This document shows, piece by piece, positions 10,273-55,624 of a DNA stretch of 64,000 nucleotides. A model generated the notes under the pieces. The model made no database searches, was not told the DNA's origin, and was given only the letters and a program-made list of their open reading frames with translations. The stretch lies in assembly GCA_009869945.1 (NCBI GenBank), contig WIXG01000046.1, forward strand, positions 124,001-188,000, read 5' to 3'. Within the stretch, counting starts at the first letter, position 1, and the number at the start of each line of letters is the position of its first letter. This DNA is from Mesaphorura yosii (Eukaryota > Arthropoda > Collembola > Poduromorpha > Tullbergiidae). The position numbers were made by a program, and so were the translations under genes.

Positions 10273-12779
10273 ATGGAAAAACGACAACGAAAACGTAATC
10301 AGAGGTAAAGGAAATATAATTTGAAAAATTGAAACGACATTGGTCAGTCAAATGTTTCTACTATCATTTTGGTAGAGGTACACAGAAGTACTTCAGTTCC
10401 GCAAAATCGAAAGAGGAACTGCAAGAAATTTTGGAGGATGTTGGACTTCGCGATCAAAAGTCGCTGGTGGGGGGCCTCGGAAACATCTCGTCAAGAAGTG
10501 ATGTGCATGCAGTTACCAGAGATCCTGTTACTGATTCCGCTGACGTCTGGTCACCAACTCCTTATGCAGCATTCAAACTGCTAATCTCTGCTAAGTTTGC
10601 TGCAGCTCTTTGGACGACTATATCTGACTGCGACGAAACCTACAACTTCTGGGAGCCCGTACGTCCGCATTTATTGCATGATTATCTGGAAATGAAGCTC
10701 TTCTTTTATCATGGGCTTCTGTTATTAAAATTAGACCCATTACTTGCTGTACGGAAAAGGGTTTCAAACATGGGAATATTCTCCAGTGTACGCGCTCCGG
10801 TCCTACGCGTACCTTTGGGTTCATGCATTACCAGCGAAAATATACAACGTGTTGCTCCATCCGAGTCCACTTCTGGTCTTCTTCTTCATTAGATGTCTCT
10901 TGGCCTTCATGTCTTCCATTTCAGAAGTATTTTTGTATAGAGCTGCGAGAAAATATGTCAGCGGAAGTGTGAGTTGCATTGCCCTGATCACGTCCCTCTT
11001 TTCGCCTGGACTTTTTATGTCGTCAACGGCTTTCTTACCGAGTTCGTTCTCCTCGTAAGTGCAGTTTACTAATACGGATAGATAGAGGGATGCGGGATGT
11101 CATCCATGATGATCGCTGATGATGTTACATGATCTATGATTCCTATTTCATTTTTATGTTGAAAGATACATGACCGCGGTAGCCATTGGTGCGTGGATGG
11201 AAGGCTTAAATGGACTTGCAATCTTTGCAGTTGCGTTGTCAGCTCTGCTGAGTTGGCCCTTTGCGGCACTGACGGGGTACTTGAAATTTTCTTGATACTT
11301 TGGTACGTTGTACCGGATTAATTTAGTTCATATTTGTCTGATTAGGCTACTAATTGCGCTCGACATCCTGTTGCTGCAAAGGAAAATAGTCACCTTTGCA
11401 TCGTGGTGTGTAATCTCATTAGCTTTAATTTTGGTAAGGCTGATGCGCTCATTGATTGCACATTTCTCTGCTTAGCAACTTGGCAATTCCCTCTTTACAC
11501 ATTTGCAGATTCCAATGATTGCCATTGATTCAACTCTTTACGGAAAGCTGGTGATTCCTCCACTGAACATTATCAATTATAATATTTTCTCATCGAAAGG
11601 ACCGGATTTGTATGGCACTGAACCCTGGACTTTTTACATTGCTAACGGCTTCCTGAACTTTAATTTTATGTTTCTGCTCACGCTTTGTACTCCCATTTTG
11701 CTAATTGTCAACGGATTGACGGGAAACACAGCGAGAAAAGAAAACTGTGTGATCACTGGGACCATCTTTGTTTGGCTGGGCACCTTCATTGTGCAACCTC
11801 ACAAGGAAGAGCGATTTTTGTTCCCGATATACACACTGATTCCGTACTGCAGTGCCATAGGATTGGAATGTATTCAAGATGTGTCATTCAAAGTGATTAG
11901 ATTTCTTGGCACTAAAATCAAAGCCCTCAGAAAAATCAACTATGGACAGTGCGCCACAGTTGCAGGCATCCTTTGGATCTCTGTAACTTGTATCATTGGC
12001 TGCTCAAGAATAGTGGCGGTGCATTATAGTAAGTTATTGACGTGAAAATGGAAGGCATTTTGATAAAACGGAAGAGTCATTTGGTGATTGTACTATTTTT
12101 CATAGGTTACCGTGCTCCTTTTGACATATTTTTCAACTTGCATCGAGAGGGTGTGTTTTCTAAGCTGGAGACTGACTATCCAGAAAGAGAATTTACAGTC
12201 TGCTACGGAAAGGAGTGGTATCGATTTCCGACGTCCTTCTTGCTGCCGAGCGCGAACTGGAACGTTCGTTTTATTCAATCTGAGTTCAAAGGACAGTTGC
12301 CGAATTTGTTTCCGGTTGATGATGCACGAGGAACTCGGAAAATTCCTGAGCACATGAATGATGTCAATGCAGAGGAACCTTCACGCTATGTGAGTCCTGA
12401 GATGCCGAGTCGTTGATGTTTTTGTGTAGAAAAAATAACATTTTGTTTCTTCTCTTTTTACAAGGTGAACGTTTCGGATTGCGACTTCTTGGTTGATTCC
12501 GTTACCACAAATTCTGCGCTAGAGCCTGATTATTCAGCTAATACAGATGAGTGGATGGCCATATCTGAACAGGAATTCCTGAACAGTCAAAAATCACATT
12601 CCTTCTACCGAGCCTTTTACATCCCTATTCTGTCTTCCAAGTACACACATTACGACCGATACCTCTTCCTCGAAAGAAAACAAAAGCGGAGGAGAAAAAG
12701 AAAGCCAGCAGGTAGCAGACTAGATAGTTTAACAGCAGAAGAATATGCAAACAGTCTTAACCAGAATATTGACCTGTAA
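10273..12779 (+). CDS. ALG9: Alpha-1,2-mannosyltransferase ALG9
   Basis: This 650-residue multi-pass ER enzyme of the GT-C/GT22 family adds alpha-1,2 mannoses from dolichol-phosphate-mannose to the lipid-linked N-glycan precursor in the ER lumen. Exons are 10273-10304, 10376-10658, 10735-11054, 11166-11276, 11346-11433, 11509-12028, 12106-12389 and 12465-12779. The start was chosen because a tiny first exon (MEKRQRKRNQ) joins in phase to exon 2. The first lumenal loop has the acidic motif SDCDETYNFWEP followed by HYLLYGKGFQTWEYSP. The family motif QPHKEERFLFP lies in exon 6, and CYGKEWYRFPTSFLLP and EEPSRY follow. Length and exon-junction residues agree well with vertebrate ALG9. The C-terminus is very basic (KQKRRRKRK). 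AATAAA is at 12976-12981. Confidence 0.95.
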
Positions 12780-13536
12780 TCAAATCAACTCTAATGAACC
12801 ATTTTAGCAGCATTTGTTAACGCACGAAGTAAGCAAATCGTACCTTGAAAATACGCCAAATAGCGCCTGTCTAGTCAGTTCCATTCCGAAGTTAGCAATA
12901 CAGCTGTTATGCATGTGCCCAAGCTGTCAACATATTTACATCCACTAAAACAATGTAACAATGTTAATGATTGACAATAAAAGCCAAAGCCAGTCTTGTT
13001 TACTTTTGATGTGTGTATTAGCGCTGGACTCAACATTCACACATTTTCGCGCGAAGCGTAGTGGGAATTCACGTTCGCTGAGAACGAATGAGCTAGTCGC
13101 TAGCCTATGATCACAATGGTGGTATCGTGTGTCATGTAACTTTGCTCCGGAAGATCATCTGACATGACTCTTACAATCTTTGGCTCTGATCACGTAAGAC
13201 GTAATAGTACCTAGTTCTTATTTTGCAATCATAGACAACCGCATAAATTAACGTCGTAATTATCTTCCTGTTTTGTGCAGCTGTAGTAAGGCGATAAACG
13301 AAGGACGAAAGACGTCGGGTATTCATCGCTGCTGAACTCCATTATATCTACTTTAATTCCGTAAGCGCTAAAGTTTTAGCCGTAATAATATTTATGTACT
13401 TCTATTCAATTAGCGTTGGACTTCTTGTGGGCACCACACATTTAGGCTCATTCGGAACTATCAATAATCACCTGCTTCGTGTTTCCTGTTTCTTGGTTTT
13501 TGTAATTAGTTCATCTTAGAAGTTATTTCTGACACC
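12780..13536. other. ALG9 3' end and PFK upstream region
   Basis: No coding signal was seen. The region should contain the PFK promoter and 5' UTR, but I could not identify a TATA box. Confidence 0.5.
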
Positions 13537-16500
13537 ATGAGTGGTGTTACGGACACGATTTTGCTGCAACCGAACGACAACAATGAACACTCGAAAAAAA
13601 TTAAGATGGTTCCGCAAGGATCACACAAGGGAAAAGGCATGGCCGTATTTACGAGTGGCGGTGACTCGCAGGGTAAGAATTTTTGATAAGCGTTCGATAT
13701 GTGACAGGCACGTCGTACGTGACTCGTGGCTTCTTCATTTCTCTTAGGAATGAACGCTGCCGTTCGAGCTGTGGTGCGAGTGGGCCTGTACGTTGGTTGC
13801 AGGGTTTTTTTCATCAGGGAAGGGTACCAAGGCATGGTCGATGGTGGAGGTAATATTATCGAAGCCAGTTGGTCGTCTGTTTCAGCCATTATTCACAAAG
13901 TAAGTGGTGCTTAACACTCTGACTTTTGCCGCTAAGGATTGGAAATTAATTTCTCAATTCTGTTGGAAGGGTGGAACAATCATCGGATCCGCGAGGTGCA
14001 AGGATTTTCGCGAACGTGAAGGCAGATTGAAAGCGGCCAAGAACTTAATCGATAAAGGAATAACAAACTTGGTAGTTATTGGCGGTGACGGTTCGTTGAC
14101 CGGGGCCAATTTGTTTCGCCAAGAATGGGCCGGACTGCTTGATGAACTTGTATCCAAGAATCAAATTAGTTCAGACGATAAAGTGAAATTTGGTCACTTG
14201 AACATAGTGGGCATGGTTGGTTCTATTGACAATGATTTTTGCGGGACGGATATGACAATTGGTAAGCAAGTGTTGTGATAATGATGAGAATGTTAATTTT
14301 AATTCGCACTTCACTGAACTGTTTTTTTGTTTGCTTTGAAGGAACTGACTCGGCTTTACACCGAATAATCGAGGCCGTGGATGCAATTGTTTCAACCGCG
14401 ATGTCGCATCAAAGAACGTTTATCCTGGAAGTTATGGGAAGAAATTGTGGGTAAGTTGTAGCCAATGGAAGTACGGATGGGACTGGGAAAGCATTTTAAG
14501 AACACATTTTAGAATCTTCTATTGAGATTAAGTGAATCGTTTCTGACAAATGATAACGTTATTTTAAGTTACTTGGCGGTCACCGGAGCATTGTCTACTG
14601 AGGCTGATTACGTATTCTGCCCGGAGTGCCCGCCTCCAGCAGATTGGCAAAATAGATTATGTGCAAAACTGAACGAGGCAAGACAATATGTCACTCTCAT
14701 GCTTTAGCACTTTTAAAGTTCCTATAGTTCTTAAAACTTTGCCGTTCATAATTGCGTTCGGGTGGTTGTGTTTCGTTAGGTCATAATACATAGCCAAGAG
14801 TGTGAAGTTTTAGCTGACACATTGTGCCACTAACATGACAGTACTTCAGTCAGTCTAGTTTCTGTGTTTAGAGAGTGTGTTGATTTTGACTAATTTCCTC
14901 TTGGTCTTAGATATTTGGCACTAGTTGGGGCTTTAGCTACGGAAGCCGGTAAATGAATACTAAAGTGACTAAATTCACATCACGGCTGCTTTTGATAGTT
15001 TGTTGTACCAAAATTTGATACAGATTATGTGTTCATCCCAGAGTGGCCTGCAGAGCGTGGTTGGCCTCAGAAACTGTGTGGAAAATTGTCGCAGGCAAAC
15101 AGAATTTTTGAGCAATTTTCTGCTTTACGTCCATCAAGTCGATCTTTTTGCTATGAGCTTGCTTTGCTGTCTTCCTCAAGCCGTAGTGGTTTGCTATTGA
15201 GTTGCCTAACTTCTCAGAGCTGCTTTTGAAGGGACAAAGAATGGTCATTGACATCCACGTTTGTATATCTGGTATAGGAAAGGCTCGCTGGACAGCGTCT
15301 AAACATTATAATTGTATCCGAGGGCGCAATCGATATCAATGGAGATCCAATTACTGCCGAACAAGTTAGAAAAGTTGTTGTTGACAATCTGGGCCAGGAT
15401 GCGAGAATTACGATTCTTGGTCACGTGCAACGGGGTGGAAGTCCATCTGCATTTGACCGCATATTGGTATTGTTGCTGTTTCCTATCTCATGACCCGCCC
15501 CTTCCCTTGTTCCCTTTTCTTCAAATAAGTGAACTCAAAACGGTTGACAAATTATCGTTTTGACAGGGTTGTCGGATGGGAGCAGAAGCAGTCATGGCGC
15601 TGATGGACGCCAAACCCGATTCGGAGCCATGCGTGGTGTCACTTGATGGAAACCAAGCAGTGCGATTGCCTTTAATGGCGTGTGTTGAGAAGACAAAGGC
15701 TGTGGCTAAAGCAATGTACGTTGTTTTCATGCTCATTATTTCATGCATGGAGTTGGAATTGAGAGTTTTGATACTTTATAATTTGTTTATTCAGGGCTGA
15801 TAAGAATTTTGAACTTGCTGTTCAACTGAGAGGACGGTAAGGTTTACAATTTTTAGGATCCAAGTTGACAACTAATCAGTAATATTTATATTAGGAGTTT
15901 TCAGCGGAACTTGGAAACATTTAAAATGCTGACAAGACTTAAACCTCCAAAGAGCATGGATGAGAAAGCAAAGGCAACTGTAAGCCTTTAGTTTCTAGTT
16001 AGTATTTGAACTGGAATGTGCCAAAGCTCATTGTGCTGTGTTTTTTGTAACCAATTCACCGTTCTTCCGAGCTATAGGCATCAAGAGAACTCTCCAGGGT
16101 AAAACTAACACACTTAGCTTGCTTTTGATGTTTTGGCGTGTTTAACACTCTTTGCTGACACTTTCACATTGCCTTGCATGTTTTTGCTACCATTCTGATG
16201 TCCATGTCCACAATTTTTCTTCACCTTCAGAGTGACACGTTGTGGGGTTCGTCGGTAAGAGTCTGCATATGTAGCTTAGCAGAGCTAGGTTACTTCTTGA
16301 CCAACATCTTATTTGCTTTGACTTAATAATAATTATCGATTTTTCAGGGTGGATTTACCCTTGCCGTCATGCACGCTGGCGCACCTTGCTGTGGAATGAA
16401 TGCAGCTGTTCGCTCATTTGTGCGAAATAGTATTTATCGTGGAGATAAAGTGCTTGCTATTAACGACGGTGTGGAAGGATTGATTGAAGGATCTGTGAAA

Positions 16501-17794
16501 GAAATGACTTGGGGAGAAGTAAGTGGCTGGGTCGCCCAAGGCGGAGCATTTCTTGGCACAAAGCGTGTGATACCAACTTCGGACACAATGCCCATCATCG
16601 CAGAACAATTGAAGAGGTTTGGAATCCAAGGGCTGCTGGTTGTTGGAGGCTTTGAAGCCTTCCATACTGTTACTTTAATGGCCGACGCTCGTAACCAATT
16701 TGCTGCGTTCAGAATCCCGTTGGTCGTTGTTCCGGCTACAATCAGTAATAATGTTCCTGGCACGGATTTTTCATTGGGATGTGATACAGCTTTGAATGAA
16801 ATTACGGAAATCTGTGATCGCATTCGCCAGTCTGCTCAAGGCACGAAGCGGAGAACATTTATAGTGGAAACAATGGGAGGTCAGTATTTCATTCAAATAA
16901 GAAAACATCTTGACGGTGCAGTCGTGATGATCTATTAATAAATTCATAATTTGACTTTGTTATTGTGTAGGTTACTGCGGCTATCTGGCAACGTTAGCTG
17001 GGTAAGAGCACAAATTCGTTGGCTTACATCTCCTCAGTTTCATTGTCATGAACTAAATTAACACATCCCACAGTCTGGCTGGTGGAGCTGATGCGGCATA
17101 TATTTTTGAAGAGCCTCAGACAATTGATCAGCTAGTCGTCGACGTCAAACACTTGGCATCTAAAATAGCCAGTGGCGGAATTCAGCGCGGTTTAGTTTTG
17201 AGGTACTGCTTTGCATTCAAGGCGGAGACGACACTGCTGGAAATTCTTTGATTTGATATATTCGTTCGCTGCTGTTTAGGAATGAACTTGCAAGCGAGAA
17301 TTACAACACGGACTTCATTCATAGACTTTATGCGGAGGAGGGCCGCGGCGTTTTTACTACTCGGGTTAATGTCTGTAAGTGTTGCATGATTACCTAAATG
17401 AACAAAGTGCGTCTTGCCTTGAATTAAAATAATTTATCTGTTCTTAGTGGGTCACATGCAGCAGGGCGGATCTCCATCGCCTTTCGATAGGAACATGGGA
17501 ACTAAGATGGCTGCGAAGGCTGTGGAATGGTTTGTCAATGAACTTGCTAATAAAGGCAATCAGACTCACAATACACCACAATCAGCTGTCATGCTCGGTG
17601 TTGTGCGTCGACAATACAAGTTTACACCTGTGCAAGAATTGAAATTGTATACGGATTTTGACCATCGGATCCCAGTCAATCAATGGTGGTTGAAGATTCG
17701 GCCACTGCTCAGAATTCTAGCAAAGCACGAGTCAACCTACGTAGAAGAATGCGAAGGCTTCGCAGACGGAGATGAACAGATGGAAGTTTATTAG
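13537..17794 (+). CDS. Pfk: ATP-dependent 6-phosphofructokinase, alternatively spliced
   Basis: This cytosolic enzyme phosphorylates fructose 6-phosphate to the 1,6-bisphosphate, the committed step of glycolysis. Constant exons are 13537-13672, 13748-13899, 13970-14261, 14342-14450, 15278-15466, 15567-15715, 15795-15836, 15895-15979, 16348-16879, 16971-17001, 17074-17202, 17280-17374 and 17448-17794. Between the fourth and fifth, one of two alternatives is used: 14569-14677, or 14911-14948 plus 15024-15094. Microexons of 21 and 24 bases (16078-16098, 16231-16254) precede the C-terminal half. With one alternative and one microexon the protein is 805-806 residues, normal for the duplicated animal enzyme. 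The N-half has [26 protein letters not shown], the catalytic GSIDNDF and MGRNCG. The C-half has the degenerate regulatory copy ([26 protein letters not shown]). AATAAA is at 17913-17918. Confidence 0.95.
14569..14677 (+). other. Pfk: PFK alternative exon 5a
   Basis: This 109-base exon encodes the [17 protein letters not shown] segment and ends KLNE. It starts after TTTTAAG. Its only donor that keeps the frame and aligns with other PFKs is GAG|GCAAGA, a GC-type donor. It would splice directly to exon 6 at 15278, skipping 5b. Confidence 0.85.
14911..15094 (+). other. Pfk: PFK alternative exon 5b, split into two (14911-14948 and 15024-15094)
   Basis: Two exons of 38 and 71 bases separated by a 75-base GT-AG intron together give 109 bases, exactly the length of 5a. 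They encode the same segment ([16 protein letters not shown], ending KLSQ), with 21 of 36 positions identical to 5a. The final donor is CAG|GCAAAC, again a GC donor. Confidence 0.85.
16078..16098 (+). other. Pfk: PFK 21-nt microexon (ASRELSR)
   Basis: The microexon is flanked by an AG acceptor (GCTATAG) and a GT donor (GTAAAA). It is phase 0 at both ends, so it can be included or skipped without changing the frame. It lies in the linker between the two PFK halves. Confidence 0.65.
16231..16254 (+). other. Pfk: PFK 24-nt microexon (SDTLWGSS)
   Basis: The microexon is preceded by a good pyrimidine tract and TTCAG and followed by GTAAGA. It is phase 0 at both ends. It occupies the same linker position as the 21-nt microexon upstream, so the two are candidate alternatives. 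Confidence 0.7.
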
Positions 17795-20700
17795 TTAGAA
17801 TATACGTTCGTTTGGCGCGATTCTAGTCTTGATGTAGTATGACGTATTGAATCTAGATGGTATTGCCAACATTTTACTGGTACTGTCTTAATTCTGAATA
17901 TGTTTAAACGTCAATAAATGCATACCCAGGTAGCGGTTCTCGCAGTTAATGTTTACGTTAATAGAGCACATGGTTTTAGATCGTTTCTGATAGCGTTGAC
18001 TGGTTTGGTTGACCTTGTTCGAGAAAAACAAATCCAATCATGATATGAGAAGCAGTGAGAAAATTGATGGCTGAAATCGACATTAACATTTGGGGAATGT
18101 GAGTTGCAATTTGCATTTCTTTTCAACAACTTGTTTGCAACTAGAAACAGGAAGACTCTTACAAGGAGCTTGTCACCTTCATGAAGACTTACAAAATGCC
18201 CAACGGTTCAGCGTGGAAGTGGAATTGCATTTCATTGTATTCTGCCTCTTATTTAGCCTCTGTTCCTTTTCTACGTCTGAATTGCACAGCACGGTGTAGA
18301 TGAAAATTTCGAACTTAGGAAGAAGAAACGACAAAGAAGAGGAGTGCGAATTATTCATGAGCATGCTATACCATCCACTTACGTCGTCCTCCTTCTCGCT
18401 CTTCGTTTCCTTCTAAATATTTCATGCGACGTAACGATGGATATCCACGGACGGGTTTTAGGGTTTTGTAAAATCCAACTAAAGTCGAGACTCACAAGTG
18501 TGAGAAAGAAAAGTAATCCAGCAGTGTGTTTGTACATTGTTGGTTTCGATTGTACGCCCGAAAATGCACGTGCAAGTATGCAGACAGCCAACAGTTTGTC
18601 GGACATCGGCCAGGGTCAAATGGTGTTGGATGGAAGAAAACTAATGTAGCAACATTTGTTAAAACGCACTACACAAAAACGAAGAACCTGACACTTGCTT
18701 TCATGTACACAGTCGAGTATAGTTAAGTTCTTCACTGCAAAGAAATCCGGGCGATTCTCACCCGGAATCTCTGAGACTGAATCGCGAAACGGCAACGCGT
18801 CCATAAAATTCAGTTGCATTTCTCCACTTTTACCTTTGCTTCATGAAGTTTCTTTAAGCATGCACTCGAGAAGGAGATTCCAGACAGCACCGACCAGTTC
18901 CTGAGAAGAGAATGCAAAGATGAATTAACCGCGAAAAATAATTCGGACTAGAATGACAATGTGTGAACCTTTCCAGATTCAGGCAAAATTTTAAAATAGA
19001 CGCTAGTCTTGTAAAGTTATTGAATGTTTCTCGAAGAATAGTATTGTCAACCGATGAGAAGGTCCAGAGACAGTTAGTTCCAAACCCACAATCCACGTCC
19101 TGTTTAGAGCTGTGGCGTGGGACAGAAAGAAACGGTAGTTATAAAAGTTATAATAATAAATATGTTCTATCTCTTGTTCTACGCCATTGTAAAATGTAAT
19201 GATAATGTAATGTGTTATATTATTACAGAGTACATTATGGTGTACCAGCAGTCGTTCAATTATCATAACTCTTCATTTTTGTCTTGGTATTTCTGGTAAT
19301 TTGTTGGATACTGCCACTGCAGCCACGGAATGGCAAAAGGGAAAAAAACGTGAGCGTGGAGAAAGAAAGCGTGATGTTCCTTTACTACTCCATCGGATGT
19401 GATGCTCCGAATAGAGAGTGCCACTTTCACTGCCATTTTGCTACATATAATTTTATAGTTTCCCGGCTTCGCGTTGCATTCCACGTTTCAATGCCAGCTC
19501 AGCATTGGGCATTCATGGCCTCCGTTCAGTTACCGACCGCGTTTCATTTTTTTTGTAAAACTTGGCAGTGGATTGTGCCTGTGTGGCGGATAAAAATTTC
19601 TTTAATTTGAAGCACAGAGGTACTTTTCGCGAAATGGGGAGTTGGCACACTTAGCGGAGGGAACAGCCCTTCATCGGGTCACCTCAGTGCATTTCTTGTC
19701 ACAAACACGCAAGACGTTTTTCAGTTTCGAGCGTTTGCATACGTGTACATTTCAATTCAGGAGAAAGCGTTCGCATTGAGCGGAGATAAAAATAAAGCAA
19801 ACCGAGCGGAAGCTAAAGTGAAGTATGAGCAAGTGCGTTCCTTGAACAAGGTGCGATGGAACAGGAACAAGTATTATTATGTGAAATAATGGGGAAAAGA
19901 AAAAGGGACTGTCAAGTTCGATGCTGCCTTAATCAAGAGAAATGTTGCAGTGTATGTAGAACATCGCAGGGATCAAGAGAGAGAGGAAAGGTCCTGCATG
20001 TCGCTGGAAGTTTATTTCTCTGTGACTGTGGCCGCGCCGCACAGCAGCGGAATGTTACATGAAACCTCTCAATGCATAAATCATAATGTGAGGAAAAGGT
20101 GAAAAGTACCGCCAGAGAAAAGACGAGGCGCAGGCACATCACATTCACATTACGCTTTCTCTGCGCTCTGCACAAGGCGCCCGTGTTGCATCCTTCGAAG
20201 GCAGCAAGAGACAATGGGAAGACAAAGAAAACACGCAATTCACATTCCTGCCCGATTCTTTCACATTGTCGAGAGATTATATTGAGACATTTCCTTTCAA
20301 CTTCTCCCTTAACAAGGTTCTCACACAGTCCAGGTCCCATCGGCACCAGGAGTGGGGCTGCGACGACAAAGCCTCCATACGCTCACACCACGCCACGACA
20401 AACGCAGCGCAACAGCAGTTGGCCACTAGACGCCGGGATGCTACACAGTCTGCTCCAGTTCCTCCTCTGCTAGTCTTTTGGAAACTAATTTCCACAATAA
20501 AAATACACGATTGCACAAGCACAATAAAAGCACAACTAATAAAACCAAAATGGACAATCAGTGCATTATTCTAGCCATAGAAAAATCATCTTTTATTGCA
20601 TTCTGTGTGGACTCGTGGAAACGTGTGAACGATGCAAACAACCCATAAATGCTATTCACTTTCTCTCCAGCAGCACAATGCAGGCTGTATTGTGGAGAAA

Positions 20701-22588: not shown

Positions 22589-24240
22589 ATGTTACTCCTT
22601 AACGTCGATTTCTGTGTGTTCTTATTACTTCTTCATTGTGGCCATTTCTTCACTGAAGGTACTGAAATCAAAGTACAAAGGTAACCTTCACCTTTTCCTC
22701 AAATTGCTATACGGTACGATAAACCAAAGCTAACTGAAGAACTGCCTCCAGGTTTACAAATTTCGGCGTTCAGCAGAAGTTGTTGAGGGAAATCGTGAAT
22801 TCTCAATATGACAAGCGTATACAGCCATTTGATCCAAATAGCACAGGTTTATCATCATCCCCATTCCAATATTAGCACTCTTAAAGACTCCCAATTACTC
22901 ACATCTGTCTCATTCAAATAGTATCTCAAACGACGATCACTTCGGTAAACATGTACGTGAGATCCATTGAAGCAATTGATGATGTGAAGGAAGAATTCAG
23001 CTTGCAGGTTACATTCCGAATGAAATGGAAAGACGAAAGACTTGCATACGCTCAAAAACCAGGTATGTTAATTTACGCTTTACCCTAGTTATGAATTGTC
23101 TTGCACAGCATTTCAACCTCACGACTTCGTTTTAGAGCGGCACAACTTTCCTTACATAACAAGCAATCATCTAGATATTTGGATTCCTGACATATTTTTC
23201 TCGAATGAAAAAAAGGGACAACTTCACAATGTGATCACACCTAACGTGTACGCTCGAATTTATCCAGATGGACACGTGCTCTACAGTCACCGGTTAAGAT
23301 TATTCCATTCCTTATTATTCCATTCCTTAGTAGTATCTTCGGACGAAATATTTTTTAAGCGTAAACTCAACGGTTTATATTTCAGGATTTCGCTTACCTT
23401 GAAGTGCCCGATGAACTTTCGATTCTTTCCCTTTGACAGTCAAAATTGTTCCGTTCGCCTTGCAAGCTGTAAGTTGCAACAATACTCAGAACTATAATTG
23501 CACACTTTAATGTTTCACAATTTGACTTGCACAGATGGAAAAACGATAGAAAACCTTTTGCTTACATGGCAAGCCGAGAACCCCGTTCAGGTAGCCAAAC
23601 ACGTGGTTCTACCGTTGTTTAAGCTCTCGAATTATTCCACAACCTACTGCAACAGCCAGACGGAAACAGGTTTCATAAAAAATCACAAGTACGTACCGCA
23701 AGTTTCAGGACAGTCCACTGACATTACGTTTTCGCCTTTCCAGGAGTCTACAGCTGTCTGAACGCATCCTTCATATTCAAACGACGCTGGAATTACTACC
23801 TGGTTCATGTCTACATTCCCTGTACCATGATGGTCATTTTGGCATGGCTGACATTGTTCTTCCCACGTGAAGGTTCCGGTGGAGTGGGCCGCCTCGTAGT
23901 AGCTGCGATCACGTTGCTGTCTCTGGCGAATCACGTGGCCACTTTCAATAGGTCTCTGTCAAATGTATCATACACACGGTCAATAGACGTCTGGACTGGA
24001 ATTTGCCTCACATTCGTGTTTGCGACAATTTGGGAGTTCACTGTCTTGCATTGTCTTGCCCGAAGACAGCAGAATAAGAAACCAGCCACCAACGAAGAAA
24101 ATGCTGAGGAGGAATCAAAATCACCATCGAGCACCGAAATATGCGATAAGATAGATTTCGTGGCAAGATTTGCGTACGCCGTTTTGTTTGTGGTATTTGT
24201 AGTAATCTACGTAATTTTTTACTGCGCTCACCCATTCTGA
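22589..24240 (+). CDS. Cys-loop ligand-gated ion channel subunit (GluCl/GlyR-like, divergent pore)
   Basis: The 408-residue protein has exons 22589-22680, 22752-22846, 22922-23062, 23109-23292, 23386-23468, 23535-23669 and 23744-24240. A signal peptide (MLLLNVDFCVFLLLLHCGHF) is followed by an extracellular ligand-binding domain with YDKRIQPFDPN, WIPDIFFSNEKKG and the Cys-loop CPMNFRFFPFDSQNC. Loop C has a second disulphide pair (YCNSQTETGVYSC), as in glutamate- and glycine-gated chloride channels. M1 contains YYLVHVYIPCTMMVILAW. M2 is unusual: GGVGRLVVAAITLLSLANH replaces the usual P-A-R and Thr-rich helix. M3 starts with SYTRSIDVWTGICLTFVF, typical of GluCl. A short charged loop leads to M4. 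It is clearly an anion-type Cys-loop subunit by similarity; its ligand and conductance cannot be read from sequence. Confidence 0.88.
23299..23328 (+). repeat. 15-bp tandem duplication inside a channel intron
   Basis: The 15-base unit ATTATTCCATTCCTT occurs twice head to tail in the 93-base intron 23293-23385. The duplication length is a multiple of three. Confidence 0.85.
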
Positions 24241-28256: not shown

Positions 28257-31200
28257 TTACAGCGATGTGAGATACATCCAACTCTGTTGATACCGAATTG
28301 TGACGCAGAGGGCCAGGCAGCCGAACGTTACCGACCAGAAGCGTGGCGTGGCGTGATTATCTGTACGTGTGAGGAGGGGAAACACAATTAGAACTCGGTG
28401 TACTCATTAAGTAGGTTAAGGAACGAAGCGACGAAGATTGCGAACCTGTCCGTCTTATTGCTGATGATGTTGATTCAATTTTTGGTACAGGAACAAAAGA
28501 CTCGTCCTCAGAGGAACTCAAGAGACCGTTTCGCCCATTCATGTCGGTGGCTGGCACAACAACTCCAGTTTTGGGAGATGAATCAGACTTTCCTCCAGAA
28601 TTCTTTCCCGCTGCTCTTCCCTTATTATTTCGCTTATCGTCCGACTTTGGAGTTGGGCTGAGTCGACCCGCACCATCCTCTGAAACAGTTCATCCAATTT
28701 TATTAAATGGGCGGCTTATTTTCTAAAGTGCGGTGTTATTTCTAAATAAGAATATTCTGGTTAAGTGCTTCCATACAATGATGGCATACGCCCAAGTGAG
28801 GATTTGCGAAATGAAATTTAGCGAATTTCTGTATCAGCTGGATTTCAAGTTCTCGTGCCTGGATCAGTTTTACTCGCAGTGAATCTTGTAAATCAAGCTT
28901 TCCTAATAATATCCTTTATTTATAGGATGTTGCGCTGTCAGCTTACGTTCATTTGCCATTTCACTGGTCGCGTGATCCAGTTTTCTCGTACAACTTCCAG
29001 CAATTTGATTTTACAAGTTTTAGCCAGTTTTATGGCTCCCGTACACGACATATGCGAATTCAGTGCAACAATAACTCCCACAAGCTTCGTTAATATCTCA
29101 TCCATTTTCAGTCGCGGCAGGCGACGAAACCGATGACAAGCAAGCAATTTTATAAACTCAAGGGACTTACTTTCTTTGTTTGCCTTTGCTCCAGTAACCT
29201 TTGGCGGAAGTGATGGGTGAGGAATCTCTGTGGAATGAAAATAATGTCAGTGCACTGCAAATCGAAGTTTCAGACAATCGGCACAGTTTCTGTTAATTGG
29301 CTTGCAAATTAGCCGTGGACATGGGACAATAAAAATGTGTATCAATTTCATTTTTCTGTGCGTAGCTGCGTAAGACTTATGAATATTAATACCGGTGCAT
29401 GGAAAATAGCGAGTATTTGCCAGCAGCGGAAGAGTCCTTCAGGGCAGCAAAGTAACATACTCATCGTGGTAATGAAATTACTCCTACTGCAAGCATGCGT
29501 GGGAAAAAGTGGCAGTTTTATTGGCATTGGCACTTTAGTGTGGTGGTGAAGGAATGACAACTTTTGCTGTAAAATAGTGCAGAGGAATGCTCACTCGGCG
29601 TGCGATGCGACGCTTCGAGTCTTAATTGTGCAGCGTGAAAATTTAATCACTTTAAAAGGCAGCACTCCACACAACTCACACGCCACGCTGTGCCTCGGCT
29701 TACCGTAGAGACGTATTGAGCCTTCAGTTTCGCCCAAACTGTTTTTCGAGAGACACCTGTATCTCCCAAAGTCTTTGTCCTTGAGGTTGCGGATGGTGAG
29801 CCGCATGTGAGTCTTGTAGTGTGTCTCCACCGTCTCAGTTTGGTACTTGGCCGTTGTCAGGATCATCATGCTGTCGTAAACCCAGTAGCTAATTGCTCGT
29901 GGAAAAGCCTCCGTGTTGCACTCCAGAGTCACATTTGTGCCGCTCGGTGCACCCACCAATTGATTCGGAACCCAGATCATCGGAGTGACTGTTGACGAGA
30001 GAAAAGTTTTACAACTCGCTAATTTCTATGCTGAAACGCGAAGGGGTAAACAAAAGAAAGCCAGCATCGATTATGTTTGTAAATACATGATGTCTTGCCT
30101 TTCTCTGTGCGTCAACAGAAACATTTTCAAGCGTACTTCAGCAGACAACATTCGATGACAGATAAATTTGAAAACACTTGTAAGATGATGTGCTGTGGTG
30201 GCATTTTTGTGTGCAACAATTTACGAGTGCGCGTATTTGGCGGAATTGTTTCTATGTTAGGTTCTTGTCCCAAAATAACACCGTGTCATTGACAGACAAA
30301 GAGTAAATCTCCTGGAGTCTTCGTAATACATGTCACGCGGCAGCTGCAATGCCGAAATGGCTCGCCGCAACGTGCTAAACTAGAAAGTAGAAATCTATTA
30401 TCCGCCGCGGAAGTTCATGTGATGACTGTTTGAGTTAAGCCATCCATTCTTATGCTTCACGACATGACGTTGAAGTTGACTTGAAGCTGACTTTTTTCTT
30501 TCCTTCCTCGTCGGAGGTCGAACTATCTTGCCTTGCCTGCACCTCGCATTACATTATGAACTGTGGCGGAGAAAGCGGCACGGCACGGAGGAAGAAGTGA
30601 CGGGAGAAACTGATCAAGACAAATTAGATCTCCCTCCTACGCATGCATCCATCTATCTCGGTTTATCCCCCTTTGACATGTGTGGCTGTTTTGACTCCCT
30701 ACCATTACAACTTGAGAGGATTACGACTTAAGCTGACGGAAAACTGTCTAAATGTGTCCAGCCACACGCACGCTTTCTGTCATGTAAACATTAAACATTT
30801 CTAGGTTTGGAAGCCGTGATTAATTTCGTGGGTCTGCATTTCAATTGTTTCGAATTGCGAATTAATTGATCGTAAAACGTAAAAGTAAAGAAATTGACTT
30901 ACACTCCACATCGACTATTATCCTTTTGCTCACTGATGGAGGCACACCGTTACCTTTCGGGAAGAAGAATATTCAATTACACTGATCCATCTGGCATGGC
31001 ATGAGAGATTGTGCTTTGAGGGAATGAACTTACTTGCTATGCAAAGATATGCTCCCATTTCCAGTCGACTGATTTTGTAAAGGTGAAGTCGCTCTCCTTC
31101 CGATACATTCACTGTAAAAGTAAATAAAGAATTGTGTACAGTGAGCGAATTGACCTTGAAATGCATCATCGGTTAAAATGTTCAAGTTGGCAATGAAGGG

Positions 31201-49473: not shown

Positions 49474-52400
49474 TTACGAATCTGAGTTGACCAGATTCTG
49501 CCTTCTCTTGGCTACAGCGTCCTGATACATAAATTGAACTCTTAAGATGAATAATACGGATACAAACGTGGTAATGTACACAACGATGAAGGCGACGCCT
49601 TCAAATATCAGCTTCGGTGTGAAAATTTTCCAGACCATCAAGTGACGACGATGAATGGTCACGCACACCATGCATGACAGGAGCTGTAAGGATAAGAAAA
49701 GTTACTAAGGATAAGTTACTTCATTGTCACAACTTAAAAATTTGGTTCATCACAGGATAATTCTTCTCACCTTAAGACCATGCAGCGTAATGAATTTTGC
49801 GCAGATGTCGAGCATCTGGTACAATCTCTGCTGACTAGAAACATTTGTACTATGGATACTCTTCCAGAACACCAGCATCGGTAATGTCAGCGCAAAGAGG
49901 ATTTGTGACGCATAAAGATTACATAAAACAGACACAGCTGGCTGGATCCAATTAATCCAGGATGAAGCTGCATCAGACAAACTGTTTGCGCTTTCTGTAG
50001 TAAAGGCAGAGTCCCATGGAATACTCGAGAAGAGCGGCTGGTGTCCCGTGGCGTAAAAGAAGAGCTGTGAGGCCAGAGTCCAAGATATAGCGGCTGACCA
50101 TGAACATTCTAAAAGTGCATGGTAAATGCTTGATTGACATCTGCAAGACGGAACCTTTTCCATAACATGAGAATGCTTGACACTTACGGCTGTCCGTGTT
50201 TCCGTGAATTCCTACCAGTGCAGCGATTGTATAGGGTATAAAGGTCATAACCGGTACATGTCCAATGCTTGATACATGCGTCAACAGTAAGGTGACTATA
50301 ATTGTATTTGTAAGCAAACTTGACCCATGGATGAAGTCGCTTCTTTCGTCCAACCCAGATTCGTCTTCCGCGTCTTTGGCGAGTAATGAATTTACTGAAA
50401 TTTCGGGACAACGATCTCCGCAACTATTCGTCATCTTCATATCATTTTCATTACCAGGCTCAACTTCATCTGAGATTGCCTTGCGACTAGGTTCTGATTC
50501 TTCCAGAAGACTGCCATTTCTGAGTTTCCCAATGCAACACAAAGGCTTCCACCAAATGACTAAGATTGATCCTATCGCCAACATTTGAAACACAAGTGGG
50601 AAATACTGAACCAGTGGGCGAATTTGTATTTGTACTAATTGGCCAAACAGGAGACCCTGGAATAAAGTAGGTTTACTGTTTTTATTGCAGGGCTACATAA
50701 GGTATTCCTTAATGCTTGAATAGTCTCACCTGCAGTGCCCAGTGCACACAAAGCAGCACGACGAGGATTGATGGAATGTATTTTCCAATCACTGAACAAG
50801 GCCTTGAGCTCAGGATGCACTTTTGCCCGAGCATAAAACTTCGCAGTGACACAACGAGGACAGCTAAACTAATAAGTGCAATACTGTAACGAATGTACTT
50901 GTGGACGATCCAATCGTTTGGTAACGAGGAAAGGTTCTTGTGCAACAAAAATTCCTGAAATGGTAAAGTCGAATATTAAATTCAAGCATCTCAACATTTC
51001 GACTTCCATAAAGTAGGTTCTTGCCTCCGTGCAAGTAGTTAGCTCTTCGCGACACCGGAAAAATATTTGACTAGTTCGCGAAATGATTAAGACACCAAGA
51101 AATAGGAGCCAAATATGCCAGCCTCCCTTTTCTTTCTTAATTTTCGTTGAAATTGGAGCAGTGCTCCTGGACAGCAAGCAGTGTATCATCAGGAGAAATG
51201 ACAAGCTCGACCCCAGGATGCTTCCTTCATTGATTACAAAACTGTTTGACAGCAATCCCAAGCAAGTGAACGCGTACAGCAAAACCGGAAAGGCAGCTTG
51301 GACTGAATGTGAACTCCTATTCTCGATGGACTCAGTGCGGCAAATGTTTCTGTCTTGGAAATAGCGCAGACCTTGCTTTAAAATTAGTACACAAAGGCAC
51401 AACCAAATTATCCCAAAAACGTAAGAAGCATCGCTTTGTTCCATAAGGAAGGTCTTGGCACTACTGATGAAAATACCAAGTACAGGAAGGAAGTTTACGA
51501 GTTGATTCAGCCCATCAAGTCCGCTGCTGTCTTGCACAGTCGCGAAAATTAAACTGATAAGAGCTAACACACACACTGTGATCCCCATCATCATCTTGGG
51601 AAAGTCGAATTGTGTCCATGTTGATGTCGCAATCTGTTTCACACGGGTCAGGTAATTTGTCGCCAAACGCTTGTACAATCTCTTCGTGGTGGAATTTCCA
51701 TTCAGTTTGAACTGCTTATAAGCTGAGACTACGTCATCAAATGTGCTGCTGAGAGTTTCGTGATGGGAGCTGAAGCCGTACGCGTCAATATACTTTCTAA
51801 CTTGAAGTACATTTTCCAAGAGTGATTCCACATAATAGTCGTCTTCAGTTAATACTGGAATTACTTCTCCAAGTGATGAGAATGGAATTGGAACCTGAAA
51901 AATTGTCGCTAGCGTTGGGATGAGATCAATCTGCGATACTGATTTCGAATTCAGCAAGTTAGAACTGCAAATCATTGACTCTCTTTTGGCGAGAAACAGT
52001 AGACCGGATTCGACTTCATCCTTCGAATCTCCACCGTGATCTCCAGTCGCGGTCATCCCATGATCTCCGACAACAACCAGCAATGTCTCAGAATTCATTG
52101 ATTCAAAGATGAAACGTAAGGCACCGTCAATTTCATTTTGTTTTCGTTCCATTTCAATGTGATTTGGTCCGTAGCGATGGCCGCAATGATCAATGCCAAG
52201 ATAGTGAAGAATGAGCACATCCCAATCCGGATGCTTTTCGGGGTTATTGAGTAGGGAATGTAGCGTTAAGTTTATCGCGTAGTCAACTGTGTCAAGGTCC
52301 CAGGCATTAAAGGAAGGATGACCTTCCACAATCCCCTTGAAGTTGCTCTGAGGGAATAGACTGAGCCAGGTGTCGTCGCCGAGAAAGGCAATTTTGTAGC

Positions 52401-52921
52401 CAGCATGATCAAATTGATAAATCAAACTATCCTCTTCAATTTCATAGCTGGAATGTGAAATACAAAATTAGCCCCGACATAACCCACAAAACCACAAGAA
52501 AATAGCACCATTATTACCTGTTAAAATTTGCGCTGACGTCCACAAATGTGGGCATTGTGCCGGTAGTGAGTGCTTTCAATCTCTGCATTGTTGTCGTGGG
52601 CGGATCCGAAATGCACTTGTAGGCACAACACGTTTCTTTACTCCTAGCACGAACGGACGAATCGCATTGATTTGACAAGAATGGCATTCTTTGGACAAAA
52701 TCATATCGCAACGCGTCCACAAGCACAAATATCATCTTGGCGAACTTCGGTACACCCGTCTTGTTGAATTCGTGCTGTTTTGACGATTTTTCAGAAATGA
52801 CCTTCCTGTTCAGAAGATACCCTCTGCTGAATATTAGGATGCCAATGATGATGCAAAACCCACACGAAGTGATAACCAGAAACTGATCAAGTAGGGAGTT
52901 TCGTAATCTTCTTCGCTTCAT
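49474..52921 (-). CDS. PIGO: GPI ethanolamine phosphate transferase 3 (PIG-O)
   Basis: This 1,022-residue ER membrane enzyme transfers ethanolamine phosphate to the third mannose of the GPI anchor, the group later joined to the protein. Exons on the minus strand: 52518-52921, 51025-52447, 50730-50954, 50188-50656, 49771-50108 and 49474-49683. An N-terminal membrane helix is followed by the alkaline-phosphatase-like catalytic domain: metal-binding Asp in FVLVDALRYDF, nucleophile Thr region DPPTTTMQRLKALTTG, GDDTWLSLFP, HYLGIDHCGHRYGPNH and VVGDHGMTATGDHGGDS. Many membrane helices follow, then GHQPLFSSIPWDSAF and the C-terminal HLMVWKIFTPKLIFEG. PIGO rather than PIGG is indicated by PTTTMQRLKALTTG, HCGH and the C-terminus. 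The second intron appears to use a GC donor (GAG|GCAAGA). A possible GT donor lies 21 bases further in. The poly(A) hexamer lies within ten bases after the stop. Confidence 0.95.
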
Positions 52922-53499
52922 TTTGATGAAAGTATGGTGAATGCCAGACCACGAGCGGGCGATGGATACTCTCCACTAAACGGGACACTTCACCAGTGAA
53001 CCTTCTACAAAATCAGTCTAATTTTCATTGACTGCATTCTAACTGGCAACAATTTCCATCGAAGCGGTCAAAATGCCGAAGTATTTTAAGCTACTTGAAA
53101 GTTGCAGTCTGTCAGCTTTACAAACCGGAAGCTCACGCGCCCACTGCAAGGATCTCTCAGATGAATTTACTGCATTAGCATCTTGCTCGGTTACTGTTTT
53201 CAACAACAAAGAGTTCGGCTTAATTCTTACTAAAAGTCATCACTAATTAAATTAGTGTGTTGTGTTGTGTAACAGTAACTGTGTCACTCTTATGGCTCGA
53301 GACATCACTGAAGTCCAAGTTGATGGATGGATTTACAGCACAAACTGCTCTAATATTAGGCATTTCACGCCATAATAATGGCGAGCAAAACAGATCGTAA
53401 CGCGACAAGGCATCTTGGTTTACTCAATATCAAGCTAATCGGATGCATATTTTGTTTCGTTTTTAAGAAAAATAGAAAATAGATTAAAACTTATTTGTG
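52922..53499. other. Spacer between PIGO and POLK
   Basis: The spacer holds the PIGO promoter and the POLK 3' end (both genes on the minus strand). No other feature was seen. Confidence 0.5.
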
Positions 53500-55624
53500 T
53501 CACAACAATTCTGAAAGTTTCTGTCGTTTCTCACTAACAATGCATATCTCCTCTTCGTCATCGCTTGATTCTGCACTTTCATTCCGAAAAAGGCATATGT
53601 CCTTACAGACTTGAAATGAAGGAGGCGTCTCGAAAATCATATCACAATCTTCAAACGCAGATAGAACACATCTTTCAAGATGGCATTCCGCTATCACCCG
53701 TTGAATTCTATTTACTTCCGCTCCGGAAGGACATATTGTGGCGAGGCAAATTGGACACCGAAGTACTGACTCCATATTGTCCAATGAGTTTTGAAAAATG
53801 TGCACGATGATTGAAGAAGTAGAGCAAAGGTTGCATCGCTTGAACTCGTTCTCCTTTGGATGGCTTGGGGTCAGTTTGTGGAGGACAGAATCAATCCTCA
53901 TCTGCTTCGATTTCCTCGCATTCTTACTTGATTCTGGCACTTCAATACTTTTCAAATTCGACAATCGAACACCCATTAAACGCAACACCAATTTCCCAGC
54001 ACCAAATTCTTTTCGTAATGACTCGAAGACTTTCCATGCAACAGGAAATATTATATCACATTCATTCGTGTAACTGCCCATTGACTTGATCCTTGTCCGA
54101 ACATCAAAGGCTTCGGTTTTTATCTTCACGCAGACACTTTTGCATAACATGCCCTTTTCCATAAGATCTTCGCAAACATTTGTGCACAACGACAGGCACA
54201 TGTCTTTCAGTTCCTGAATATCAGATGTAGATGAGAACGTTCTTTCACAACCCAATGACTTCCTGTCGTCATTTGTCGTGGCTGTAGTTGAATCCGGCAG
54301 ATCAAATTTCCCCATGAAAGTGTCACCAATTCCAAGCGTTACTCGCAGAAGAAACGAGACTGTTGCCGGTTTAAATACTAAATTGATTATCCCTCTGCTT
54401 CTCCAAATGTCTCCACAGGTTTTTACGTTAAGGCCATTCAGCATTTGCTCAGTCGCAGCACCAATACCGTTGACTTTTCGGATGGGCAGAGTCTCGATAA
54501 ATGATTTCACGGATTCGAGTGTAGGTTCCAAATAATACTAAGGGACAACAATGATTTATCCACAGTTACAACGTGTTGGCGACAGCTCAGAGTAGTAATT
54601 AAAGTTCTGCAGTGTACCTGATTGTTTGGTTTGTTAATGTCACTGCATATTTTGGCTAAGAACCCATTTGCAGCTATTCCTGCACTCGCCGTTAATTTCG
54701 TCTTCTCAGAGATTTTTCCTCGAATCTCATGAACCAGTTCCTGAGGCGTGATCATTTCATTTTCGGCTTTCCCAAAATTACGTTGCATCAAGCAGTCTGT
54801 CAAATCAAACTGCGCCTCATCTAAGGACATGTACGTTTCAGGGTCGTATTCAAGCAGGATTTCTTGGACTTCATCACTAGCCTTCCTGTACTTCTCAAAA
54901 TTTGGAGGGACAATGCTCAATTGAGGGCACAACTTCTTCGCAATAAATCCTGGCATTGCGGCCCTCACTCCATAGCGTCTGGCAAGATAGTTTGAAGTAC
55001 TTAACATCGCTGAGCTCCCAACAGCCATCGGGACATCTCTGTCAAAATTGCAAATCAATTTAAAATTTATTGAATTACCACATGGTTATCCTGATTGATA
55101 TTATATTCCATGGAACGACCCAATCCCTCAATTTAGTCAACTTACTTGAGCGCTGGATTGTCCCTCATTTCAACTGAGGCAAAAAACGCATCCATATCTA
55201 AGTGTACAATCACTCGTGACAAGTCGCGCCTAGCTTCCAGCACTGCTGCCCTCTGAGTCATCTGAAAGTAGAAACAATCATTTTAGACAAAAGACCATGG
55301 CCAATTCCATAAGAATTTTTACCCCACCTCCTTTTCTGACGCCTGAATTTGAGTCTGAGTATAGCCACGTGCTTGCTCTTTCAGGTGTTGTACCTTTTTA
55401 TCTAACTTCTCTTGAACTACCTTCTTATGAAGATAAAACTTTGAACCTTTTGAGGCTTCTTGAATCGTTCGATTAATTGTTTTGACATCCAGCCCTGACA
55501 TGCCAGCCTTCTCGTTTATCCCCATCAATTTGATGCCTTGCTGCGAAGAAGGCGATGGCGACGTTTGTGGGTCTTCCATATCCTCCAACTCCATGTCCCC
55601 GGGATCCTGTGCACACAACTCCAT
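53500..55624 (-). CDS. POLK: DNA polymerase kappa (Y-family translesion polymerase)
   Basis: The 623-residue nuclear enzyme extends and bypasses damaged template DNA. Exons on the minus strand: 55328-55624, 55146-55261, 54618-55038 and 53500-54537. The first exon encodes the kappa-specific N-clasp ([27 protein letters not shown]). The palm has both metal-binding motifs, [17 protein letters not shown] and [11 protein letters not shown]. The fingers are marked by [20 protein letters not shown]. The thumb and little finger have [29 protein letters not shown] and [15 protein letters not shown], and RLMGVRLS follows. One C2HC ubiquitin-binding UBZ finger is near the C-terminus ([10 protein letters not shown], then HLERC). 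Human POLK has two UBZ fingers and a longer tail, so this is a shortened form. No PCNA-binding box is evident at the end. Confidence 0.95.

Follow-up and report, generated by a model that had tools for sequence, protein, structure and literature searches.

A probable mutually exclusive exon pair in the phosphofructokinase gene of the springtail Mesaphorura yosii, with GC donors in both copies and an intron inside one

The window, by which we mean the whole 64-kb stretch of Mesaphorura yosii DNA analysed here, carries a phosphofructokinase gene (Pfk) in which two versions of one exon, 5a and 5b, lie in tandem between constant exons. The features of the gene needed below are as follows.

13537-17794, + strand: Pfk gene, coding span and stop codon (spliced translation; TIGR02478; 4omt match)
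14342-14450, + strand: constant exon 4, ending ...EVMGRNC plus two bases of Gly and carrying the MGR motif
14569-14677, + strand: alternative exon 5a, 109 nt, unsplit, GC donor
14678-14910, + strand: stretch between 5a and 5b, 233 nt, beginning with the GC donor of 5a
14911-14948, + strand: alternative exon 5b, first part (5b1), 38 nt, ending with the first base of an Asp codon
14949-15023, + strand: intron inside 5b only, 75 nt, phase 1, GT-AG
15024-15094, + strand: alternative exon 5b, second part (5b2), 71 nt, GC donor
15278-15466, + strand: constant exon 6, starting GAA and containing the R211/K213 positions of bacterial PFK
16078-16098, + strand: possible in-frame microexon 10a of the linker that joins the PFK halves, 21 nt, ASRELSR
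16231-16254, + strand: possible in-frame microexon 10b of the linker that joins the PFK halves, 24 nt, SDTLWGSS

Spliced translation of the gene gives a complete eukaryotic two-half 6-phosphofructokinase of 798-813 residues, the length depending on the linker microexons. The model has 17 exon pieces ahead of the last exon, whose donors are 15 GT and two GC. The 5b and 5a forms score 1120 and 1118.4 bits, respectively, with TIGR02478 (6PF1K_euk), for which the equivalog cut-off is 708.4, and the spliced product matches the muscle-type PFK 4omt with 1040 bits over residues 32-786 of 805. Two PF00365 stretches were found in the 5b-form protein. When PF00365 was searched exon by exon against the 93.0-Mb genome, with the best candidates scored, six matches were reported, all inside the Pfk gene (C46:137747-141530); exon 5b is absent from the matches listed. 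No second PFK gene was reported in these genome searches, which also left out exon 5b itself. Pfk thus appears to be the sole PFK-1 gene, and a second one is unlikely.

Other genes were recognized in the window. An Alg9-like mannosyltransferase gene lies upstream of Pfk at about 10400-12780 on the + strand (PF03901 on 11476-12042; limits by eye). A transmembrane exon of a neurotransmitter-gated ion channel (PF02932) is found at 23722-24237 (+), and the frame 23072-23494 resembles, by eye, the extracellular part of the same channel. An exon encoding immunoglobulin domains (PF13927, PF07679) occupies 29594-30025 on the − strand, and a type I phosphodiesterase-domain protein (PF01663) and an IMS-family DNA polymerase (PF11799, PF11798) lie at 50872-54537, also on the − strand; the PF01663 protein is perhaps a GPI ethanolamine phosphate transferase, which is our guess. 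No Rfam family or tRNA was found in the 64-kb window.

The two versions of exon 5 have equal length (109 nt for 5a, 38 + 71 = 109 nt for 5b), share the flanking exons 4 and 6, and enter exon 6 in phase 0. Because exon 4 ends in ...MGRNC plus GG and exon 6 starts with GAA in phase 0, either copy fits between them. In silico, a transcript with exactly one copy yields an open product of 805 residues with microexon 10a or 806 with microexon 10b. All other combinations run into an early stop: after 332 residues when 5a and 5b are both included, after 237 when exon 5 is skipped altogether, and after 272, 283 and 297 residues when only 5b1, only 5b2, or 5a together with 5b2 is included. The initial annotation had given the coordinates, lengths and junctions of both copies exactly, and its frame logic for 109-nt copies, in which inclusion of both or neither shifts the frame, was borne out. 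Its further statement that the frame enforces the choice goes too far, since the frame merely renders the wrong products useless and the mechanism of exclusion is a separate matter. A search of both strands of 13400-18000 with a score threshold of 30 revealed no third exon-5 copy; two exon-5-like matches at a single antisense site inside exon 11 scored 38 and 31, compared with 117 for 5a against 5b, and were taken as chance.

The two copies are clearly related but distant from each other. They are identical at 65 of 109 bases and differ, as the initial annotation had counted, at 15 of the 36 full codons (37 with the shared Gly) when translated. Their BLOSUM62 score is 123 while the maximum among 100,000 shuffles is 25, so the homology does not arise by chance. 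Identity at third positions is only 14/37, and 14 of the 20 codons for shared residues differ silently; pS is 0.86, which is saturated, and pN is 0.26. Of 5000 neutral simulation runs given as many base changes as observed, not one had 15 or fewer residue changes (the minimum was 17), and a stop codon was gained in 4071. These values indicate that the duplication is old and that residue change has been constrained, although the test is pairwise and does not divide the constraint between the two copies. No similarity above shuffles was detected in the three pairs of flanking introns tested. Copy 5a is identical to PFKM at 21/37 residues and 5b at 20/37, while 5b is identical to PFKP at 23/37 and 5a at 19/37; these identities say little about which copy is ancestral.

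From homology, matching length and phase, the frame test, the splice signals and the constrained divergence, we conclude that one exon of what is apparently the only PFK-1 gene was duplicated in tandem long ago and that its two copies probably serve as mutually exclusive alternatives, in agreement with the exclusive pair of the initial annotation; we put the probability of this reading at about 0.86. Each Pfk mRNA would then contain exon 4, either 5a or the two-piece 5b, and exon 6, with both copies expressed and the choice between them regulated. Transcripts carrying both copies or neither would be expected to undergo nonsense-mediated decay owing to their early stops.

Alternatively, one of the two could be silent or dying and seldom enter the mRNA; the split 5b and the more divergent 5a are both candidates for such a duplicate. 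Each copy has features that fit this idea. The pyrimidine tract of 5a is weak (10/20, compared with 15/20 for 5b1), and 5a deviates at residue 234, where its V contrasts with the L of 56 of the 67 homologues, and at residue 247, where its C occurs in none of the 67 and I is found in 51. For its part, 5b requires an extra splicing step and deviates at residue 252, where it has A while all 49 long-type homologues have P. However, both frames are open, the residues GYLA, A242, D243, PE and W256 are kept in both copies, and change has been constrained across a saturated silent distance, even if this pairwise measure does not separate the copies. We therefore regard a dying copy as improbable.

How the exclusion would be achieved is a different question from the frame. 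The intron between 5a and 5b, at 233 nt, is long enough to make a too-short intron an unlikely cause, and no U12-type site was found by inspection. Competing RNA pairing between introns, of the docking/selector type, is reported for some fly clusters (PMC6071210), and it could in principle separate 5a from 5b; yet none of the six intron pairs compared with dinucleotide shuffles stood out, as 77-178 of 200 shuffles were equally low or lower, in a comparison to which a single sequence lends little power. We think this mechanism quite unlikely here. The pair could also be alternative without strict exclusivity, so that splicing of both copies or neither serves as a deliberate lowering of PFK through nonsense-mediated decay. 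The early stops of such products and the generally weaker nature of GC donors (PMC2490688) are in line with this idea, but we saw no sign of it in the sequence, and exclusive splicing would be just as likely to send its mis-spliced transcripts to decay as a side effect. We consider a deliberate decay route highly improbable.

Returning to an exclusive pair, we noticed a feature of the splice sites that was absent from the initial annotation. The donors that lead into exon 6, GAG/gcaaga in 5a and CAG/gcaaac in 5b, are both GC, and they are the sole GC donors of the 17 in the Pfk model. For 5b2, no in-frame GT alternative exists within 15060-15180. For 5a, there is one stop-free in-frame GT, 12 nt downstream (TAT/gtcact), which adds ARQY; this is a poor site and would insert four residues. 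GC donors are reported to account for less than 1% of sites and to be enriched among alternatively spliced genes (PMC2490688, PMC7242645), and they are described as lacking conservation between two nematodes (PMC2490688). Since GC donors come and go between nematodes in this way, both GC sites here may reflect chance or mere descent, and because 5a and 5b are themselves related by descent, the paired donors are not two independent events. On the other hand, a single transition would have turned either donor into GT, and the similarity of the flanking introns has been lost; the presence of GC in both copies thus suggests that the retained donor has a role. The two rare donors may act as weak sites that let regulators pick one copy.

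To consider what the choice might change in the protein, we placed exon 5 on the bacterial enzyme. The MGR motif corresponds to residues 169-171 along the bacterial PFK chain 3pfk, and the R211/K213 positions fall in constant exon 6. Exon 5 presumably begins with the helix behind the MGR loop, continues through the effector loop and a further strand, and reaches into another helix, and we take the bacterial effector-loop residues G185 and E187 to correspond to E241 and D243 of the Pfk product. The 15 residue differences between the copies map to the helix adjoining the MGR loop, to the strand that follows the effector loop, and further along the segment.

For conservation, we used prokaryotic relatives. 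The exon-3 segment has relatives at 68 loci in prokaryote genomes, none animal by title, and none was confirmed in viral contigs. Genomes with titles such as Chloroflexi, Cytophagales and Mycobacterium encode PFKs that are 58-71% identical to the Pfk exon-3 segment, and these PFKs have the GYLAL...PE.PP..W pattern as in animal PFK, unlike PfkA. Of the 68 loci fetched, 67 passed tblastn at 1e-10 with an N-half query and one was dropped, leaving 49 long-type and 18 PfkA-type homologues. The residues GYLA (230-233), A242, D243, PE (248-249) and W256 that both copies keep are the same in 41-49 of the 49 long-type sequences. Residue 241 is Glu in both copies while it is Gly in PFKM, PFKP, 45 of 49 long-type and all 18 PfkA-type sequences, and a honeybee (Apis) primer peptide, AAICSEA, has Glu at the matching position.

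The initial annotation had proposed that the isoforms may differ in substrate or effector handling. A difference in substrate handling is unlikely, as the MGR loop sits in constant exon 4, while an effect on effector handling or coupling is plausible from the positions of the changes. With both the MGR loop and R211/K213 in constant exons, the swap is more likely to alter allosteric coupling, stability or subunit contact than substrate binding; it is then coupling or subunit contacts, and not chemistry, that would most likely set the isoforms apart. In a bolder and rather doubtful extension, which we offer tentatively, the pair would form a tunable allosteric switch: the choice would be set by the matched GC donors, the swapped stretch would connect the loops for fructose-6-phosphate and for the effector, and a tissue- or stage-specific effector response would be obtained from one PFK gene, with E241 hinting at an arthropod-specific rewiring of the site. 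Under this scheme, each copy would have retained its GC donor while silent sites diverged to saturation, since a stronger GT in either would fix the choice.

Pfk contains a second possible module of alternative splicing. The microexons 10a and 10b, located between the PFK halves, preserve the frame in the spliced translation whether none, either or both are included.

Of five insects tabulated in one study, four carry just one PFK gene (PMC9933520), and splicing would offer these four a route to PFK variants; the same source lists three annotated transcripts, given without detail, for the PFK of Diaphorina citri. A mosquito proteome is said to show a single PFK isoform in a paper on insect PFK kinetics (PMC4766633). 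If the exon 5 copies differ in effector response, differences in AMP sensitivity among insects may partly reflect which copy is expressed; the AMP-site change discussed for Diptera in that kinetics paper is near residues 475-487, outside exon 5 (PMC4766633). In addition, matched GC donors combined with a split copy would provide a simple test of whether donor strength sets exclusive splicing.

Exons 9 and 10 of C. elegans let-2 are a known mutually exclusive pair. As with Pfk exon 5, a GC donor belongs to an alternative exon in let-2, one that is regulated during development, and the GC donor of intron 10 is reported to be required for regulated splicing there (PMC2490688, PMC7242645). In contrast to Pfk, let-2 is a collagen gene with the GC donor on one copy, whereas both copies carry one here. 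Among glycolytic allosteric kinases, the human PKM exon pair and a PFKP event are described as swaps of homologous exons that affect regulation, but the PFKP event affects residue 539, which belongs to the opposite PFK half, and concerns a different exon from exon 5 (PMC7954323).

The closest comparisons come from the same gene in insects. Drosophila melanogaster Pfk is a mutually exclusive cluster according to transcript annotation (PMC6071210), which makes it the same gene with the same kind of splicing; it has three exons instead of two, its position in Pfk is unspecified in the source, and we found no report there of a split copy or GC donors. For A. mellifera, published primers for exons 3, 4 and 5 encode EVMGRH, AAICSEA and ERLMGQR (PMC6396890). 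As the exon-4 primer lies between EVMGRH and ERLMGQR, Apis exon 4 is exactly exon 5 here. Apis PFK exon 4 (A. mellifera) or exon 9 (A. cerana) has the same boundaries, lying between an MGRHC exon and an ERLMGQR exon, and shares the phase-0 CAG/GAA junction. In A. florea, the A. mellifera exon-4 sequence is reported to be intronic, within intron 5, which the authors explain by exon gain and loss; by numbering, A. florea has its own exon 5 ahead of that intron-borne sequence (PMC6396890). Differing from the authors, we take the two sequences to be alternative copies, of which each annotation records one.

The Apis exon also bears on the intron inside 5b. The sequenced Apis copy has a GT donor (CAG/gttcgc) and no reported inner intron, unlike the split 5b with its GC donor, and the intron tables, as far as shown, contain no intron at the split place of 5b (PMC6396890); the evidence on this point is thin in that the exon-4 primer stops right at that place. 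With a homologous exon that has no reported inner intron, gain of the 75-nt intron in 5b is favoured over its loss from 5a. The gain or loss after duplication that the initial annotation had left undivided thus leans towards gain, with loss in 5a a less favoured possibility.

The comparison with Apis and Drosophila relies on published primers and text, and common descent of their copies with 5a and 5b is not implied. Pfk is not mentioned in the searched main text of two papers on exclusive exons in insects (PMC3303723, PMC3228551), and among the matches listed from a literature drawn mostly from outside subscription journals there was no description of a split copy or of GC donors in a Pfk pair. 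In kind, the arrangement of 5a and 5b is not new: the Pfk cluster of Drosophila and the PFK exons of Apis precede it (PMC6071210, PMC6396890).
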